A stretch of 5,067 nucleotides of DNA from a bacterium (GTDB lineage Bacteria > Coprothermobacterota > Coprothermobacteria > Coprothermobacterales > JAADFF01): NCBI GenBank assembly GCA_027063755.1, contig JAMORD010000139.1:1-5067 (forward strand), given 5' to 3'. The position numbers and the translations under genes are program-made. Below are positions 1 through 5,067 of this stretch, piece after piece. How positions within the stretch are numbered: the stretch's first letter is position 1; each line of letters opens with the position of its first letter. The notes under the pieces were generated by a model, which did not search any database, was not told the origin of the DNA, and saw only the letters and a program-made list of their open reading frames with translations.

Positions 1-516
1 CTTCAAAGCCGTATACACAACATTACCATCTACATCTATAAGAATTACATCGGCAAATTCATTGGCCTCTCTGAGTTTTTCAAGAATAGGATGATAGTAA
101 GAGTGATAATCATCATAAGAAAACAGTGTGGAAACCAAATCATCAGGAATACCCTCTATAGAACGAATAGTAACAAGTTTATTCTTCTGCCCATTAGGAT
201 TAAGCTCTATATACGCTTTTTGGAGAAGCTCCATACGTTCTTCAGGCTCATCAGATACCTCGTAAAATGCTGTAGAAAAACTTGAAACAGCCGATACAAT
301 ATCGTTATTTTGAGAGAGGGCATAAAGCACCCTATCAAGCTGATTAAAATACTCGTGAAGGGTAACAGCCCTATTATCACGGGCTACCACAAGCTTATCT
401 CTTTCACTATCCAAAAGACTTTTAGAGGAATACGAAACTGACAGCCATGCAATAATAATCGCTGCCACGACTACTATCGCTACCGTTGCGATAATAGTCT
501 TCATCCTAATGCTCAA
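1..516 (-). CDS. Membrane-anchored extracytoplasmic sensor protein, N-terminal fragment (chemotaxis receptor or cyclase/kinase type)
   Basis: The reading frame runs open from base 516 to the window edge, giving 172 residues with no stop; the C-terminal part is outside the window. A short basic start (SIRMK) is followed by a hydrophobic helix at about residues 7-26, which fits an uncleaved signal anchor. A mostly hydrophilic helical region follows (about 30-110), with a YHSYYHP motif near residue 138 and VILIDVDGNVVYTALK at the edge. This Y..YHP...D..LID..G.VVY arrangement is known from sensor domains on methyl-accepting chemotaxis proteins, sensor adenylate/diguanylate cyclases and histidine kinases, so a stimulus-sensing role in the periplasm or outside the membrane is likely. 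The output domain cannot be told from here. TTG at 516 is preferred because an ideal ribosome binding site lies 6 nt upstream; an in-frame ATG at 504 is the alternative. The gene is transcribed away from the neighbouring operon. Confidence 0.8.
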   Translation of the reverse strand, partial: MSIRMKTIIATVAIVVVAAIIIAWLSVSYSSKSLLDSERDKLVVARDNRAVTLHEYFNQLDRVLYALSQNNDIVSAVSSFSTAFYEVSDEPEERMELLQKAYIELNPNGQKNKLVTIRSIEGIPDDLVSTLFSYDDYHSYYHPILEKLREANEFADVILIDVDGNVVYTALK

Positions 517-670: not shown

Positions 671-1741
671 ATGAAAATAAATAGATATATTAAAGAAGCA
701 GAGGCTTACTCTTCACCGGGGTGGCCCGATAACATAGAGGACATCATAAGACTAGGTATGAACGAGGGTGATTTCATATCACCCCATGTTGTTGAATATA
801 TACAATCTTTAAGTATAGATCTCATTGCAAGACACTACCCACCTGGAGAGATACCCGAGCTTATAAATGTCATAAAGGAAGTGCATAATATTGGCGACAA
901 TGCAGAAGTACTCTTGTATCCCGGCTCTGACAATGCCATAGACAATATCATTCGCACATTTTCCGAACCTGGAGACACCATTATTATGAGATTTCCCGAA
1001 TATGGCAATACCGTATTATTTGCCCAAACACACGGACTAAATATTGTATACATAGATGTCAACCCCATCAACAATCTAACAGTAGAAGCACTTATACAGG
1101 CATACCACAAGCATCACCCTGCCATTATCTACTTTTCCAACCCACATAATCCGTCGGGACAATTTTTAGGACCAGATGAAATAGAAATACTGGCTCAAAA
1201 AGCCCAAAATTCTCTAATTATTGTTGATGAAGCATACTTACACTTTGCCGACACAACATTCATAGGAGCAATACCACTGGTAGAAAAATATTCTAATATT
1301 GTTATAACACGGACATTCTCCAAACTATTTGGTTTAGCAGGTCTCCGTATTGGATTTGCCGTAGCAAACACTAAGATATCGCCACACCTTCGCATTTTGC
1401 AACGAACAAAGGACCTAACATATATTTCCCAAATGGCAGCACTCCAGAGCCTCAAGCATATAGAAGAATACAGGCAGGTAGCCCATGAAATCATAGAAAG
1501 TAGACAATTTGTAGAAAACAGCCTTAAGGAAATAGGCTTTGAAGTTATAGGTCCGTCATATGGAAATTTCGTATTATTTAAACCAACAGTAGAACCTAAA
1601 ATACTTTACGAAAGACTTCATGATAGGGGATATATCACTCGCTTTTACACTGAGCCCCGTATGGCAAATTACATGAGAGTATCTATATGGAGAAAACCTG
1701 TAATGGAAGGCTTCATTAGAACACTAAAGGAAGTGTTGTAA
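671..1741 (+). CDS. PLP-dependent aminotransferase class I/II, HisC/CobD-like
   Basis: A 356-residue fold-type I PLP enzyme of the usual length for the HisC/CobD group. Seen in order (numbering from ATG 671): LGMNEGD near 28-34, GSDNAID 85-91, a PEY segment near 109-111, NPHNPSG 157-163, VDEAYLHF 185-192 with Asp186 and Tyr189 expected to touch the cofactor, FSKLFGLAGLRIGF 215-228 with Lys218 as the Schiff-base lysine and Arg226 for cofactor phosphate, and Arg336 in MRVSIWR as the probable substrate carboxylate or phosphate contact. The family includes histidinol-phosphate aminotransferase, threonine-phosphate decarboxylase (CobD) and a serine-phosphate decarboxylase. GSDN replaces the common GSDE, and IWR replaces the usual IG[TS] after the last arginine, so plain histidinol-phosphate activity is doubtful. 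No other his or cob gene is in the window. The next gene begins 2 nt downstream, which implies that its product feeds a nucleotidyltransferase. ATG 671 was chosen, with GGAG at 655-658 and a rather long spacer; an in-frame TTG at 653 would add six residues. Confidence 0.88.
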   Translation: MKINRYIKEAEAYSSPGWPDNIEDIIRLGMNEGDFISPHVVEYIQSLSIDLIARHYPPGEIPELINVIKEVHNIGDNAEVLLYPGSDNAIDNIIRTFSEPGDTIIMRFPEYGNTVLFAQTHGLNIVYIDVNPINNLTVEALIQAYHKHHPAIIYFSNPHNPSGQFLGPDEIEILAQKAQNSLIIVDEAYLHFADTTFIGAIPLVEKYSNIVITRTFSKLFGLAGLRIGFAVANTKISPHLRILQRTKDLTYISQMAALQSLKHIEEYRQVAHEIIESRQFVENSLKEIGFEVIGPSYGNFVLFKPTVEPKILYERLHDRGYITRFYTEPRMANYMRVSIWRKPVMEGFIRTLKEVL

Positions 1742-1743
1742 AG

Positions 1744-2427
1744 ATGTGGACTGTGATACTTGCTGCCGGTCTGGGAACAAGGCTTGAGAGAGAAGACACA
1801 GACAAACCTAAGCCCCTCGTGTCTATAGGTAATGAGACCTTTCTTGACAGACTCTATCGTATGCTGAGGCCCTACACAGAAAAGTTTGTCATAGTCGGAG
1901 GACACGGATATCACTATGTGGAGGCATGGGCTAAAGGCAAAGATGATGTTATGACCATTCAGAACCCAGAATACACCAACACAGGCAACAGTCTCTCGGC
2001 ACTGCTGGGCCTTATGGTTGTTCCAGAAAAACATGATGTTATTCTCACCGACGGAGATGTTGTCATAAAAGAAGAATATATAGAAAAGTTGGCAAGCACA
2101 AAAGGCAGTGCATTTCTTATAAGCAAGACAGAACTTGATGAAGAAGCCATGAAGGCAAAAATAGAAGACGGTTGTATTGTAATGCTTGGTAAAGGCATTA
2201 ACGGAGACGGAGAAACTGTTGGTATGCAAAAACTATCTGATAAAATGGTAGAGAATTATATCTGGCACTTTGACAGAAAAAGGCATGTTATGGGATACTA
2301 TGAAGATGTATTAACAGAACTTTTAACGAAGGAGTGTGTAAAAGCAATATGGGTAAATCAAACACACTGGGCAGAGATAGATACCAAAGAAGACCTACAA
2401 AGGGCCAAGGAGATTGGCCTCATCTAA
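1744..2427 (+). CDS. Nucleotidyltransferase, LicC / inositol-1-phosphate cytidylyltransferase-like (NTP_transferase family)
   Basis: A 227-residue single-domain cytosolic enzyme expected to join an NTP, most likely CTP, to a phosphorylated small molecule and release pyrophosphate. It starts directly with the nucleotide-binding signature LAAGLGTRL (6-14), followed by KPKPLV (21-26) with the conserved lysine. NPEYTNTGNSLSAL (74-87), the metal-binding segment LTDGDVV (101-107, Asp103 and Asp105), YYEDVL (185-190) and EIDTKEDLQRA (211-221, Asp213) follow. The TGN.LS, YYED and EIDT..DL pattern fits cytidylyltransferases for phosphocholine, phosphoethanolamine, aminoethylphosphonate or inositol phosphate better than large hexose-1-phosphate enzymes. 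It starts 2 nt after the PLP enzyme, with AAGGAAGTG in that gene's last codons as ribosome binding site. Its last 79 nt overlap the CDP-alcohol phosphotransferase gene; in IPCT/DIPPS proteins these two activities are fused. The exact substrate cannot be read from the sequence. Confidence 0.88.
   Translation: MWTVILAAGLGTRLEREDTDKPKPLVSIGNETFLDRLYRMLRPYTEKFVIVGGHGYHYVEAWAKGKDDVMTIQNPEYTNTGNSLSALLGLMVVPEKHDVILTDGDVVIKEEYIEKLASTKGSAFLISKTELDEEAMKAKIEDGCIVMLGKGINGDGETVGMQKLSDKMVENYIWHFDRKRHVMGYYEDVLTELLTKECVKAIWVNQTHWAEIDTKEDLQRAKEIGLI
2329..2336 (+). promoter_or_regulatory. Ribosome binding site inside the nucleotidyltransferase gene
   Basis: AAGGAGTG lies within the upstream coding sequence, 12 nt before the ATG at 2349 that I chose for the CDP-alcohol phosphotransferase. 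The spacer is longer than ideal. The only other in-frame start, GTG 2334, overlaps this motif and has no ribosome binding site of its own. No canonical start codon exists in that frame between 2350 and the first conserved residues, so the overlap is real whichever start is used. Confidence 0.45.
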
Positions 2428-3074
2428 CATATAGAGAAGTTCTTGAAAGCCTCGGGGGGCCTCTCCCCATATGGGAATACTTTTTCCTCAGATATATATT
2501 CGGCTTTCTTGTGTACATTAACATAAACTGGCTCCACCTTCATCCCAATATTATTTCTCTATTATCTATGGCATCGGCCATAGCGGGAGTATATGCCTTC
2601 TGGCAAGGCAATTTTGTATGGGGGGCTTTGCTATTTGAGCTAGCCTTCATCTTTGACTGTGTAGATGGGCCAACAGCCCGCATAGCCAAGAGGACATCAA
2701 AATTGGGGGTAGCCCTTGAAGTATGGACAGACAGCATGAGACTTATAGGAAGCATGTGGGGACTTGTTCATGGATTGGGAGCAAACAATACTACTATGCT
2801 ACTTGGCATGATATACAGTATCTCATTTGGAGCAGGTATCTGGTTGTATACCAAGAGTGTAGAAAGTGCAATGAAAGGCGGAGAAAGTATCAATCAGTGG
2901 ATATCTTCAGGGCCTTTCTGGAAAATTCCCACATGGATTGAGTTGGAAACGGTGGGTTTCTTTTTACTCCCCCTTATAGGCAAACCACTATGGGGATTGT
3001 GGACCTTAGCTGCTATTCACCCTATTATGACCCTTATTATGACGGTCCACGGAGTGGTAACAGGTGAAGAATAA
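2349..3074 (+). CDS. CDP-alcohol phosphotransferase family integral membrane enzyme
   Basis: A 241-residue membrane enzyme that should transfer a phospho-alcohol from a CDP-activated donor to an acceptor hydroxyl and release CMP. The basic N-terminus (about 1-25) lies in the overlap with the previous gene. An amphipathic segment with LTYREVLESL (26-35) and a P-N-I motif (66-68) at the start of the first hydrophobic region follow, as in this family. The CDP-binding motif begins at Asp103 and reads DCVDGPTAR (103-111), then G120, Glu124 and Asp128. The consensus is D-x2-D-G-x2-A-R-x8-G-x3-D-x3-D, so the third aspartate is a glutamate here, while the putative catalytic last aspartate is kept. 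Hydrophobic stretches near 48-62, 67-84, 88-104, 130-168 and 203-235 suggest about six membrane segments. Placement between a nucleotidyltransferase and a UPF0104 protein supports use of a locally made CDP donor. GTG 2334 is an alternative start. The acceptor (diacylglycerol, inositol phosphate or other) is unknown. Confidence 0.87.
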   Translation: MGKSNTLGRDRYQRRPTKGQGDWPHLTYREVLESLGGPLPIWEYFFLRYIFGFLVYININWLHLHPNIISLLSMASAIAGVYAFWQGNFVWGALLFELAFIFDCVDGPTARIAKRTSKLGVALEVWTDSMRLIGSMWGLVHGLGANNTTMLLGMIYSISFGAGIWLYTKSVESAMKGGESINQWISSGPFWKIPTWIELETVGFFLLPLIGKPLWGLWTLAAIHPIMTLIMTVHGVVTGEE

Positions 3075-4098
3075 GCACCTAATCAGAAATATTTTTATCG
3101 CCATTGTTCTGTCTATCTCCGCCTTCATTATAGTAGGAGATAAAGACATATGGAAAGCATTAAAACTAATACCTACCATTCCATTCTATGTATGGATTAT
3201 AGGAATAACACTCATCGTCATCAAATGGCACATTGAGGCTCTAACTTTATATATATTAATAAAGGAAAAAGGCTATACTCCAAAGTACTTTTCTCTTGTA
3301 AAATTTATTATTTCCAGCTATCTATTTCACTATATTACCCCATTTCAAAGCGGTGGTCAGGCCTTCCAAATTTACTATCTTTCCCTTATGGAAATGCCAC
3401 CTGGTGTAGCCACAGGTATTATTCTTATACGAAGCCTAATGTTTCAAATGGCTATGATATTGGCCATAATAGTGGGATTACCAGCACTCAACCGCATAGG
3501 TCATACCAAGATAAGCCAGTTCGTATGGTTGGCTTTGGGGCTTATACTTTTCCTAATACTAATATATTTTCTCGCAGCTTCGCGAAAAATATGGCGCAGT
3601 GGTCCCATTAAGGGCATGCGAAAATTTATACATGAAAAATATGAATCTTTCTACAAAAAGTTAGCAGGAGAACTCATTCTATTTAGAAAAATTTGGCGAA
3701 CCACAAAACACCAAACATTTTTTATCGGGGTCATTCTATCATTTTTGCAAATAATACTATTCATATCCCCACTCATTGTTGTTCTATATTACCTTGAACC
3801 TAATATCAACATTGTTAGCACATTTGAATTGGCTCTGCTGGCAGACACTATAGGCGGACTCATACCAACCCCAGGTGGCAGTGGTGGTGTTGAAGGCGCC
3901 ATGTCAATCATCCTTACAGCATCTGGTATAAATAAACCAGATGCCCTACTTGCTGTTGTTATATGGAGACTGATGGCATACTACATGCCCATTGGAGCAG
4001 GCATGATAGCCCTACTCCTATCAGGCATAGATAACCCCGAAGACTTTATAGGGAAGAAAGAGCATATCCAAGAAGAATCCCCCAGCTCAGAAATGTGA
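3064..4098 (+). CDS. UPF0104 / lysylphosphatidylglycerol synthase transmembrane-region family protein (putative lipid translocase)
   Basis: A 344-residue polytopic membrane protein. Hydrophobic segments lie near residues 9-25, 41-60, 79-92, 113-139, 152-172, 218-245, 254-267, 278-287 and 296-320, giving roughly seven to nine spans. Two family hallmarks are clear: TPFQSGGQAFQIYYL (92-106) and PTPGGSGGVEGAM (268-280), the Pro/Gly-rich motif of the UPF0104 (YbhN/AglD-like) family and of the membrane half of MprF. The soluble aminoacyl-transfer domain of MprF is absent, so tRNA-dependent lipid lysylation is not expected. The membrane half of MprF is known to flip lipids, so moving the product of the upstream phosphotransferase across the membrane is a reasonable inference. 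The GTG start overlaps the previous gene by 11 nt, with GGAGTGG 6 nt upstream, which points to translational coupling. The charged tail (about 322-344) is encoded opposite the 3' end of the convergent bactofilin-like gene. Confidence 0.86.
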   Translation: MKNKHLIRNIFIAIVLSISAFIIVGDKDIWKALKLIPTIPFYVWIIGITLIVIKWHIEALTLYILIKEKGYTPKYFSLVKFIISSYLFHYITPFQSGGQAFQIYYLSLMEMPPGVATGIILIRSLMFQMAMILAIIVGLPALNRIGHTKISQFVWLALGLILFLILIYFLAASRKIWRSGPIKGMRKFIHEKYESFYKKLAGELILFRKIWRTTKHQTFFIGVILSFLQIILFISPLIVVLYYLEPNINIVSTFELALLADTIGGLIPTPGGSGGVEGAMSIILTASGINKPDALLAVVIWRLMAYYMPIGAGMIALLLSGIDNPEDFIGKKEHIQEESPSSEM

Positions 4099-4462
4099 AC
4101 GGGTCATTTTTAATGACAATATTTTTCACCTTAGCTGGTCTCAGCACATCACCCCAAGAAGCTACAATAACAATATTATCATAGTGTCCACCATCTACAA
4201 CAAGTTCTGAATACGAAATAACTACATTCTTTATATAGCATGACAAAACAATCTTGCTATACAAGGCTACCAGAGAGCCTTCAATGTGCCCACTTATTTT
4301 TACCTTGCCACGAAGAGATACCACATTACCTTTTACAGTACCTTTTACAAGGAGAACACCTCCCATAACAACGATATTACCTTCATAGACCTCTCCTTTA
4401 GGCACAATAAATACATCATCTCTTTTTACAATGGTCTTGTTAGTTTGCCTTTTTTCTTTCAT
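4046..4462 (-). CDS. Bactofilin-like small beta-helix protein (polymer-forming cytoskeletal type)
   Basis: A 138-residue protein with a short basic, Lys-rich start (1-15). About 90 residues (22-110) of short repeating hydrophobic/glycine strands follow, such as GNIVVMGG, VKGTVKGNVVSLRG and IEGSLVALYSK, spaced in the way of bactofilin and related right-handed beta-helix repeats. Such proteins polymerise or scaffold at the membrane; the role here is unknown. The protein ends in a short hydrophobic tail (FLSWGILLGYALSSL). That tail is encoded in the 53 nt antisense to the UPF0104 gene, so the protein may have lost a longer C-terminal membrane part. Three in-frame starts (ATG 4468, GTG 4465, ATG 4462) follow one strong GGAGG. 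I chose ATG 4462 because it forms a TGATG overlap with the stop of the upstream activase gene, but the choice shifts the start by two residues at most. Confidence 0.7.
   Translation of the reverse strand: MKEKRQTNKTIVKRDDVFIVPKGEVYEGNIVVMGGVLLVKGTVKGNVVSLRGKVKISGHIEGSLVALYSKIVLSCYIKNVVISYSELVVDGGHYDNIVIVASWGDVLRPAKVKNIVIKNDPFTFLSWGILLGYALSSL
4103..4126 (+). terminator. Weak possible intrinsic terminator after the four-gene operon
   Basis: A perfect inverted repeat, GTCATT / AATGAC, with a 3-nt loop (4103-4117) begins 4 nt after the UPF0104 stop codon and is followed by a T-rich stretch ending in TTTTT (4118-4126). The stem is only 6 bp and AT-rich, the T-run is not directly adjacent, and the region also codes for the convergent gene, so function is doubtful. 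No other terminator candidate was seen between the converging operons. Confidence 0.25.
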
Positions 4463-5067
4463 CACCATCTCACCTCCACATTACCCACATGGGGCCTCAC
4501 AATATCGGCAAACCTTTCAAGTTCTTCTCTACTGTATGTGTCATCGGGAGATTCACCTTCATTAAGCACCTTATCTTTATGGTACCGTTGAATAGCATAA
4601 TAGGAGGCTCCTTTTATCCACTGGGCTATATCGTAAAAATCGTTTTCCTCCACATATGTGGGTACCGCCGTTGTTCTCAGTTCAAATGGTATATCCGAAA
4701 ACATGAGTATATCTAAAGACTCAGAGACAGCCTTTACCATATTTCTACCTTTCTCTTCTGACAAGCCAATAGCCCTATAATAGTTCTGCCTTGATGTCTT
4801 GATATCCATAGCCACATAGTCTACAAGTCCATTTTCAATATAGCCCTTCAGAATATCAGGATTGCTACCGTTGGTATCTATTTTCACCTTATACCCCAGA
4901 GACTTGACCTTTTCCATAAAACTGGCAAGATTTTCACCGTGAAGTGTTGGTTCTCCACCGGTAATACACAGTCCCTTTAACATGCCTTTTCTCTTTCTCA
5001 GGAAATCAAGGACATCTTCTTCTTCATAAATACCCTCTGCAAGGGGTGGCGCAACAAGTTCAGGATT
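4462..5067 (-). CDS. Radical-SAM activating enzyme, NrdG-type (anaerobic ribonucleoside-triphosphate reductase activase-like), 5' end missing
   Basis: The frame is open from the window edge at 5067 to the TGA at 4464-4462, giving 201 visible residues. It begins NPELVAPP, which in NrdG/PflA-like proteins directly follows the last cysteine of the CxxxCxxC [4Fe-4S] cluster (CHNPELV), so only roughly 25-30 residues should be missing. Visible family features, numbered from the window edge, are the S-adenosylmethionine-binding ITGGEPT (35-41), KIDTNGSNP (62-70) and VDYVAMDIK (82-90), a FELRTTAVPTY segment and a C-terminal YAIQRYHK. These match the short NrdG-like group (TIGR02495 type), which installs a glycyl radical on anaerobic ribonucleotide reductase in the cytosol under oxygen-free conditions. 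The partner reductase (nrdD) would be expected upstream, beyond the window. The stop overlaps the start of the bactofilin-like gene (TGATG). Activation of a different glycyl-radical enzyme is possible. Confidence 0.85.
   Translation of the reverse strand, partial: NPELVAPPLAEGIYEEEDVLDFLRKRKGMLKGLCITGGEPTLHGENLASFMEKVKSLGYKVKIDTNGSNPDILKGYIENGLVDYVAMDIKTSRQNYYRAIGLSEEKGRNMVKAVSESLDILMFSDIPFELRTTAVPTYVEENDFYDIAQWIKGASYYAIQRYHKDKVLNEGESPDDTYSREELERFADIVRPHVGNVEVRW
4471..4477 (-). promoter_or_regulatory. Ribosome binding site for the bactofilin-like gene
   Basis: On the minus strand this is GGAGGTG, inside the last codons of the radical-SAM gene. From GGAGG the spacers are 4 nt to ATG 4468, 7 nt to GTG 4465 and 10 nt to ATG 4462, so it does not decide between the three starts. 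It does show that the gene is translated in tight coupling with the activase. Confidence 0.55.

Follow-up and report, generated by a model that had tools for sequence, protein, structure and literature searches.

The window analysed here is the whole of contig C139, 5,067 bases from a metagenome-assembled genome (MAG) of the Coprothermobacterota (G000; 1.5 Mb in 251 contigs, 88% complete). Positions 671 to 4098 are filled by four plus-strand genes, encoding in order a HisC-like pyridoxal-phosphate enzyme (PLP), a cytidylyltransferase (CCT), a CDP-alcohol phosphotransferase (CAPT) and a flippase-like membrane protein (Table 1). An earlier note on this DNA had described the four as tightly packed, and coordinates re-derived from open-reading-frame calls agree: 2 nt separate the PLP and CCT genes, CCT and CAPT overlap by 79 nt, and CAPT and the flippase gene overlap by 11 nt. 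Opposite-strand genes bound the group, with a divergent gene upstream and convergent genes downstream. In the other genome of the genus that was compared (G001, 93% complete), all four genes recur in unchanged order with identical neighbours on both sides (locus L041), and the encoded proteins share 79% (PLP), 88% (CCT), 87% (CAPT) and 77% (flippase) identity with those of the window. Between the two genomes dN/dS is 0.063–0.066 for CCT, CAPT and flippase; for the PLP gene, where dN is 0.126, dS has reached saturation. The cassette is under strong purifying selection in the genus, and its reading as an operon is supported.

Table 1. Genes of the window, the four-gene cassette first and its neighbours below.
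Feature	Length	Positions	Strand	Start	Annotation
HisC-like fold-type I PLP enzyme	356 aa	671-1741	+	ATG	Pfam Aminotran_1_2
LicC/PntC/IPCT-type cytidylyltransferase	227 aa	1744-2427	+		Pfam NTP_transf_3
CDP-alcohol phosphotransferase	241 aa	2349-3074	+	ATG	Pfam CDP-OH_P_transf
UPF0104 / LPG_synthase_TM flippase-like membrane protein	344 aa	3064-4098	+	GTG	PF03706, TIGR00374
Repetitive beta-rich protein	140 aa	4046-4468	-		No Pfam match; bactofilin-like by eye
NrdG2-type radical SAM activase		4462-5067	-		TIGR02495 over cut-off
Truncated membrane-anchored sensor-like protein		1-516	-		Operon flank

The CCT belongs to Pfam NTP_transf_3 (8e-13) and carries the motif GLGTR...PK, matching the pattern GxG(T/S)R...PK. 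Searched against solved structures, a three-row CCT profile ranked PntC-AEPT first (6pd1, 7e-25), ahead of IPCT (3e-21) and LicC (5e-13); the window sequence alone, without a profile, preferred IPCT. The amine of the substrate is contacted by Glu104 and Glu196 in PntC and by D105 and D192 in LicC (PMC6697681), and the window CCT has D103 and E187 at these positions. Asp and Glu occupy the two sites in all 53 cassette CCTs, the window's included; among 28 other nucleotidyltransferases the first site usually holds Asn, Met, His, Tyr or Ser, and it is acidic in two (L011 and L023). By these predicted contact residues, CYTIDYLYLTRANSFERASE, the window CCT, looks amine-type in the manner of LicC and PntC, as the note had anticipated.

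These residues bear directly on a different explanation, in which CCT, CAPT and the flippase produce a lipid or solute based on inositol phosphate or glycerol phosphate, in the manner of IPCT/DIPPS, with the PLP gene coding for an unrelated aminotransferase lodged in the operon. The best NCBIfam match of the CCT is indeed IPCT-DIPPS (NF041135), at 72 bits, with 21 bits for the CAPT; the cut-off is 580, for a model that spans both domains fused and is hard for a split pair to reach. Genome G008, from the same phylum, has a fused CCT-CAPT beside an inositol-phosphate-synthase-like gene. Nevertheless, the position of D103 is Met in IPCT, and in other lineages PLP enzymes are repeatedly found together with CCT and CAPT, even fused to the CCT, so we regard a polyol product as unlikely. 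The G008 locus itself (L051 2592-5001), where the inositol-phosphate-synthase-like gene, judged by its N terminus, follows the fused protein, probably serves di-inositol phosphate synthesis in Coprothermobacterota. Among the Coprothermobacteraceae, CCT homologues have Asn at the first amine position and keep Glu at the second. In two loci of this family (L050 7870-9655; L052 6487-8242) a LicC/IPCT-like nucleotidyltransferase adjoins an iron-containing alcohol dehydrogenase, Fe-ADH_2, of glycerol-1-phosphate dehydrogenase-like type, a pair that possibly provides CDP-glycerol-type activation.

With an Aminotran_1_2 domain (2e-47), the expected PLP-binding lysine (Lys218, in RTFSKLFG, whose first residue is 214) and the corresponding fold all present, the first protein of the cassette is a fold-type I PLP enzyme. 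Its predicted structure (pLDDT 88) matches HisC structures at Z ~41 and CobD at Z ~37.7, and is consistent with a HisC/CobD-like enzyme of either reaction. Although it shares fold and family with HisC and CobD, the HisC motifs NEN and RISIG read NEG and RVSIW in the window enzyme, which falls below the curated cut-offs of both models (TIGR01141 for HisC, 225 bits against 276.55; TIGR01140 for CobD, 131 bits against 290.55), and no histidine pathway was found in the genus. Histidinol dehydrogenase (hisD, PF00815) had no match in G000 or G001 and was matched in 13 of 14 control genomes; on this absence, a role for the enzyme in histidine biosynthesis was rejected. The concern raised in the note, that the enzyme might be the genome's only HisC and an ordinary one, does not hold up, given the lack of a hisD match. 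G000 has at least three further HisC-like genes; in the stretches read, none of them has a CCT or CAPT gene beside it. The nearest paralogue of the cassette enzyme (L046 8263-9366, minus strand, in contig C211 of G000; L214 in contig C6 of G001) is 35% identical to it, in both genomes carries Gln where the PLP-binding lysine is expected (FSQ rather than FSK), and overlaps a family-2 glycosyltransferase gene; this lysine-less protein is perhaps a pseudoenzyme or a partner subunit.

The note had offered three chemistries for this enzyme, namely decarboxylation of O-phosphoserine, transamination of a keto-phosphate, and formation of a phosphonate analogue. A phosphonate head group made by a Pnt-type pathway is unlikely, because phosphoenolpyruvate (PEP) mutase (PF13714) had no match in G000 or G001. 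SerC was found in neither genome, nor was a clear SerA: the sole phosphoglycerate dehydrogenase-like protein has its best score, 425 bits, with a glyoxylate reductase model (cut-off 455) and adjoins a glycerate kinase gene. No obvious source of O-phosphoserine is thus apparent, which weakens the decarboxylation put forward in the note and shifts the favoured chemistry to keto-phosphate transamination.

Decarboxylation would give a different scheme: ethanolamine phosphate from O-phosphoserine, then CDP-ethanolamine and phosphatidylethanolamine (PE), a de novo Kennedy-type route replacing phosphatidylserine (PS) synthase and PS decarboxylase. Another PLP enzyme, Cj1436, performs just this decarboxylation (PMC11800397), and an amine-type CCT would suit the product. 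PS decarboxylase was not detected in G000 or G001 and is present in G004, G007, G008 and G327. G000 and G001 each encode a pair of CAPT-family proteins, the cassette's own and one PgsA-like protein that we take to be PgsA from its strong PF01066 score; with no PS synthase-type CAPT and no PS decarboxylase detected, no conventional PS-to-PE route is seen in the genus. Against these points, phosphoserine supply is not evident and the PLP enzyme lies nearer the HisC than the CobD model, and we consider the ethanolamine scheme doubtful. In three genomes of the related Coprothermobacteraceae (G002, G003 and G004, 91-99% complete), no CAPT-family protein was found at all, and 14 of 14 controls have one; G004 has a PS decarboxylase despite this.

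The third protein is a member of Pfam CDP-OH_P_transf (PF01066; 6e-13, 50 bits over a cut-off of 22). Its motif, DCVDGPTARx8GxxxExxxD, follows the family pattern DxxDGxxARx8GxxxDxxxD at all residues but one, with Glu124 replacing the third Asp, and R48 is invariant. A profile of the CAPT family matched AF2299 best among structures (7e-23), followed by phosphatidylinositol phosphate (PIP) synthases and then by eukaryotic choline/ethanolamine phosphotransferases (1e-7). The fourth protein belongs to PF03706 (LPG_synthase_TM; 7.5e-37, 128 bits) and exceeds the cut-off of TIGR00374 (91 bits against 43.2); the MprF model gives 37 bits against a cut-off of 600. The membrane domain of MprF, which moves phospholipids, is the best characterised relative of UPF0104.

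These families also recur together elsewhere. Searching named genomes with the PLP alignment returned 80 loci, of which 49 contain a PLP, CAPT and CCT triad; several of the loci lacking it end too near the PLP gene to judge. All 49 triads are on one strand and 45 lie within 3 kb. The order is PLP-CAPT-CCT in 34, PLP-CCT-CAPT, as in the window, in 12 and CAPT-PLP-CCT in 3. By record title the lineages are Ignavibacteria, Bacteroidetes, Chlorobi, Calditrichota, Krumholzibacteriia, Acidobacteria, Aminicenantes and Spirochaetes. PLP, CAPT and CCT genes also stand together, in that order, in G033, and in G327 PLP, CAPT, flippase and CCT are found together, as confirmed by Pfam, making it the one genome beyond the genus with all four families. 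Near the named triads, profile searches found no UPF0104 protein, which only the window, G001 and G327 have; an extra membrane protein follows the triad in 14 loci, and the representative tested is a LysE-type translocator. In Acetatifactor and Treponema, CCT and PLP are fused in one protein (L167 4972-6984; L177 5023-6993) beside LicD or Glyphos_transf. Those triad PLP, CAPT and CCT proteins that were scanned stayed below the cut-off of every NCBIfam model, and the open-access literature yielded nothing relevant on the triad, CDP-serinol, phosphatidylserinol or Coprothermobacter lipids. As far as could be found, the combination of gene families is apparently undescribed.

The partners of the fusions raise the question of the acceptor. 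LicD and Glyphos_transf modify glycans or teichoic acids, and the membrane protein behind many triads is a LysE-type translocator, not UPF0104. Such neighbours would suit a pathway in which the amino-alcohol phosphate goes to a glycan, polyol or polyprenyl acceptor, the flippase-like protein exports the product, and no new glycerophospholipid is made. The window itself, however, has an integral-membrane CAPT instead of LicD, and its UPF0104 protein is related to the phospholipid-moving domain of MprF, so that we judge an acceptor of this kind very unlikely here.

We therefore favour, with about even confidence, an operon that makes, CTP-activates, attaches to the membrane and translocates an amino-bearing head group, with transamination as the entry step. 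From the protein families, their conservation and the amine-type residues we infer the substrates, acceptor, transfer direction and flipping as follows. The HisC-like enzyme would transaminate a keto-phosphate to an amino-alcohol phosphate, the best candidate being conversion of dihydroxyacetone phosphate (DHAP) to serinol phosphate; a less likely variant is decarboxylation of O-phosphoserine to ethanolamine phosphate. The CCT would couple this product to CTP, giving a CDP-amino-alcohol, and the CAPT would transfer the phospho-amino-alcohol part to an acceptor in the membrane, a diacylglycerol-type lipid being the likeliest, to form a phosphatidyl-amino-alcohol that the UPF0104 protein would carry across the membrane.

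Several observations weigh against this pathway. Motifs and fold do not separate a transaminase from a decarboxylase, since HisC and CobD structures both match. Glu124 occurs in the window and G001 CAPTs, and the other 39 cassette CAPT homologues have Asp. The curated families closest to the CAPT, archaetidylinositol phosphate and PIP synthases, use CDP-lipid donors, so that the transfer direction proposed here is an assumption based on the neighbouring CCT. Absences in G000 and G001 are provisional, both genomes being incomplete. Moreover, family matches had first suggested that the window cassette and the widespread triad are orthologous, and this is unsupported. With hold-out profiles built from triad proteins without the window's genus, the window PLP enzyme scores 152 bits and a true HisC, from the his operon of Ilyobacter, 166; the window CCT (108) and CAPT (55) score no better than unrelated family members. 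In a PLP tree the window and G001 enzymes group with a second gene of the genus, the lysine-less paralogue (support 100/99), outside the clade of triad and fusion enzymes (98/97). Guilt by association thus operates at the level of family only, and the window cassette appears to be either a separate, convergent assembly of these families or a very diverged one. The recurring combination supports a functional link and does not transfer substrate identity. Of the note's expectation that the four families are conserved together, what stands is conservation in one genus and analogous assemblies elsewhere; demonstrated orthologues are lacking.

Bacterial amino-phospholipids are taught as being derived from CDP-diacylglycerol via PS. 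It is possible, although we hold this only tentatively, that complete de novo CDP-amino-alcohol pathways, each consisting of a PLP enzyme, a CCT, a CAPT and a translocator, have arisen independently several times in bacteria, yielding an undescribed membrane phospholipid such as phosphatidylserinol, or PE without PS, and that such a pathway is the sole amino-phospholipid route in the window's genus. If so, phospholipid synthesis in bacteria would have a second de novo starting point, at which the head group itself is made and activated; it would serve a lineage where no PS/PE route was detected and, through analogous assemblies, several phyla. A specific, measurable lipid is predicted, and many genes that would at present be named 'histidinol-phosphate aminotransferase' would acquire a likely function.

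Some details of the locus concern gene boundaries and flanks. In the 79-nt overlap, differences between the window and G001 fall mostly at CCT third positions, so that the CAPT N terminus there is without visible selection. Both candidate CAPT starts, the ATG at 2349 and a GTG at 2334 that would extend the overlap with CCT to 94 nt, are conserved in G001. The PLP gene has an alternative upstream start, TTG at 653. A promoter scan found sites no more frequently than in shuffles. The beta-rich protein on the minus strand, which overlaps the 3' end of the flippase gene, is kept in G001.

The cassette shares elements with several known systems. IPCT/DIPPS likewise pairs a CCT with a CAPT, but acts on inositol and lacks both the acidic amine position and the PLP enzyme found in the window. 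In the Pnt pathway of PntC-AEPT (PMC6697681), as proposed here, a PLP enzyme feeds a LicC-like CCT and the acidic amine-contact positions are common to both; the CCT-PLP fusions form a class I analogue of PntC-AEPT. Pnt has a class V aminotransferase together with PEP mutase, whereas the window's genus has no PEP mutase match, which points to a phosphate ester rather than a phosphonate. In the capsule locus of Campylobacter jejuni, the PLP enzyme Cj1437 makes serinol phosphate from DHAP, and the PLP enzyme Cj1436 makes ethanolamine phosphate from phosphoserine (PMC11800397, PMC12409886). These resemble the proposed entry step in the reactions that they catalyse, and their products are amidated onto glucuronic acid with no CDP activation (PMC11800397). 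Similar in logic is the Kennedy-type CDP-choline pathway of Treponema denticola, LicCA plus CPT, as outlined where PMC8590670 cites Kent 2004: there too a CCT makes a CDP-amino-alcohol that a CAPT puts on lipid. By that outline T. denticola scavenges choline, which a kinase domain phosphorylates, whereas in the window the PLP enzyme would draw on central metabolites to make the amino-alcohol phosphate, and the operon adds a flippase gene. The window operon would then operate as the bacterial CDP-choline pathway does, apart from a new first step in which a PLP enzyme stands in for choline uptake and kinase.

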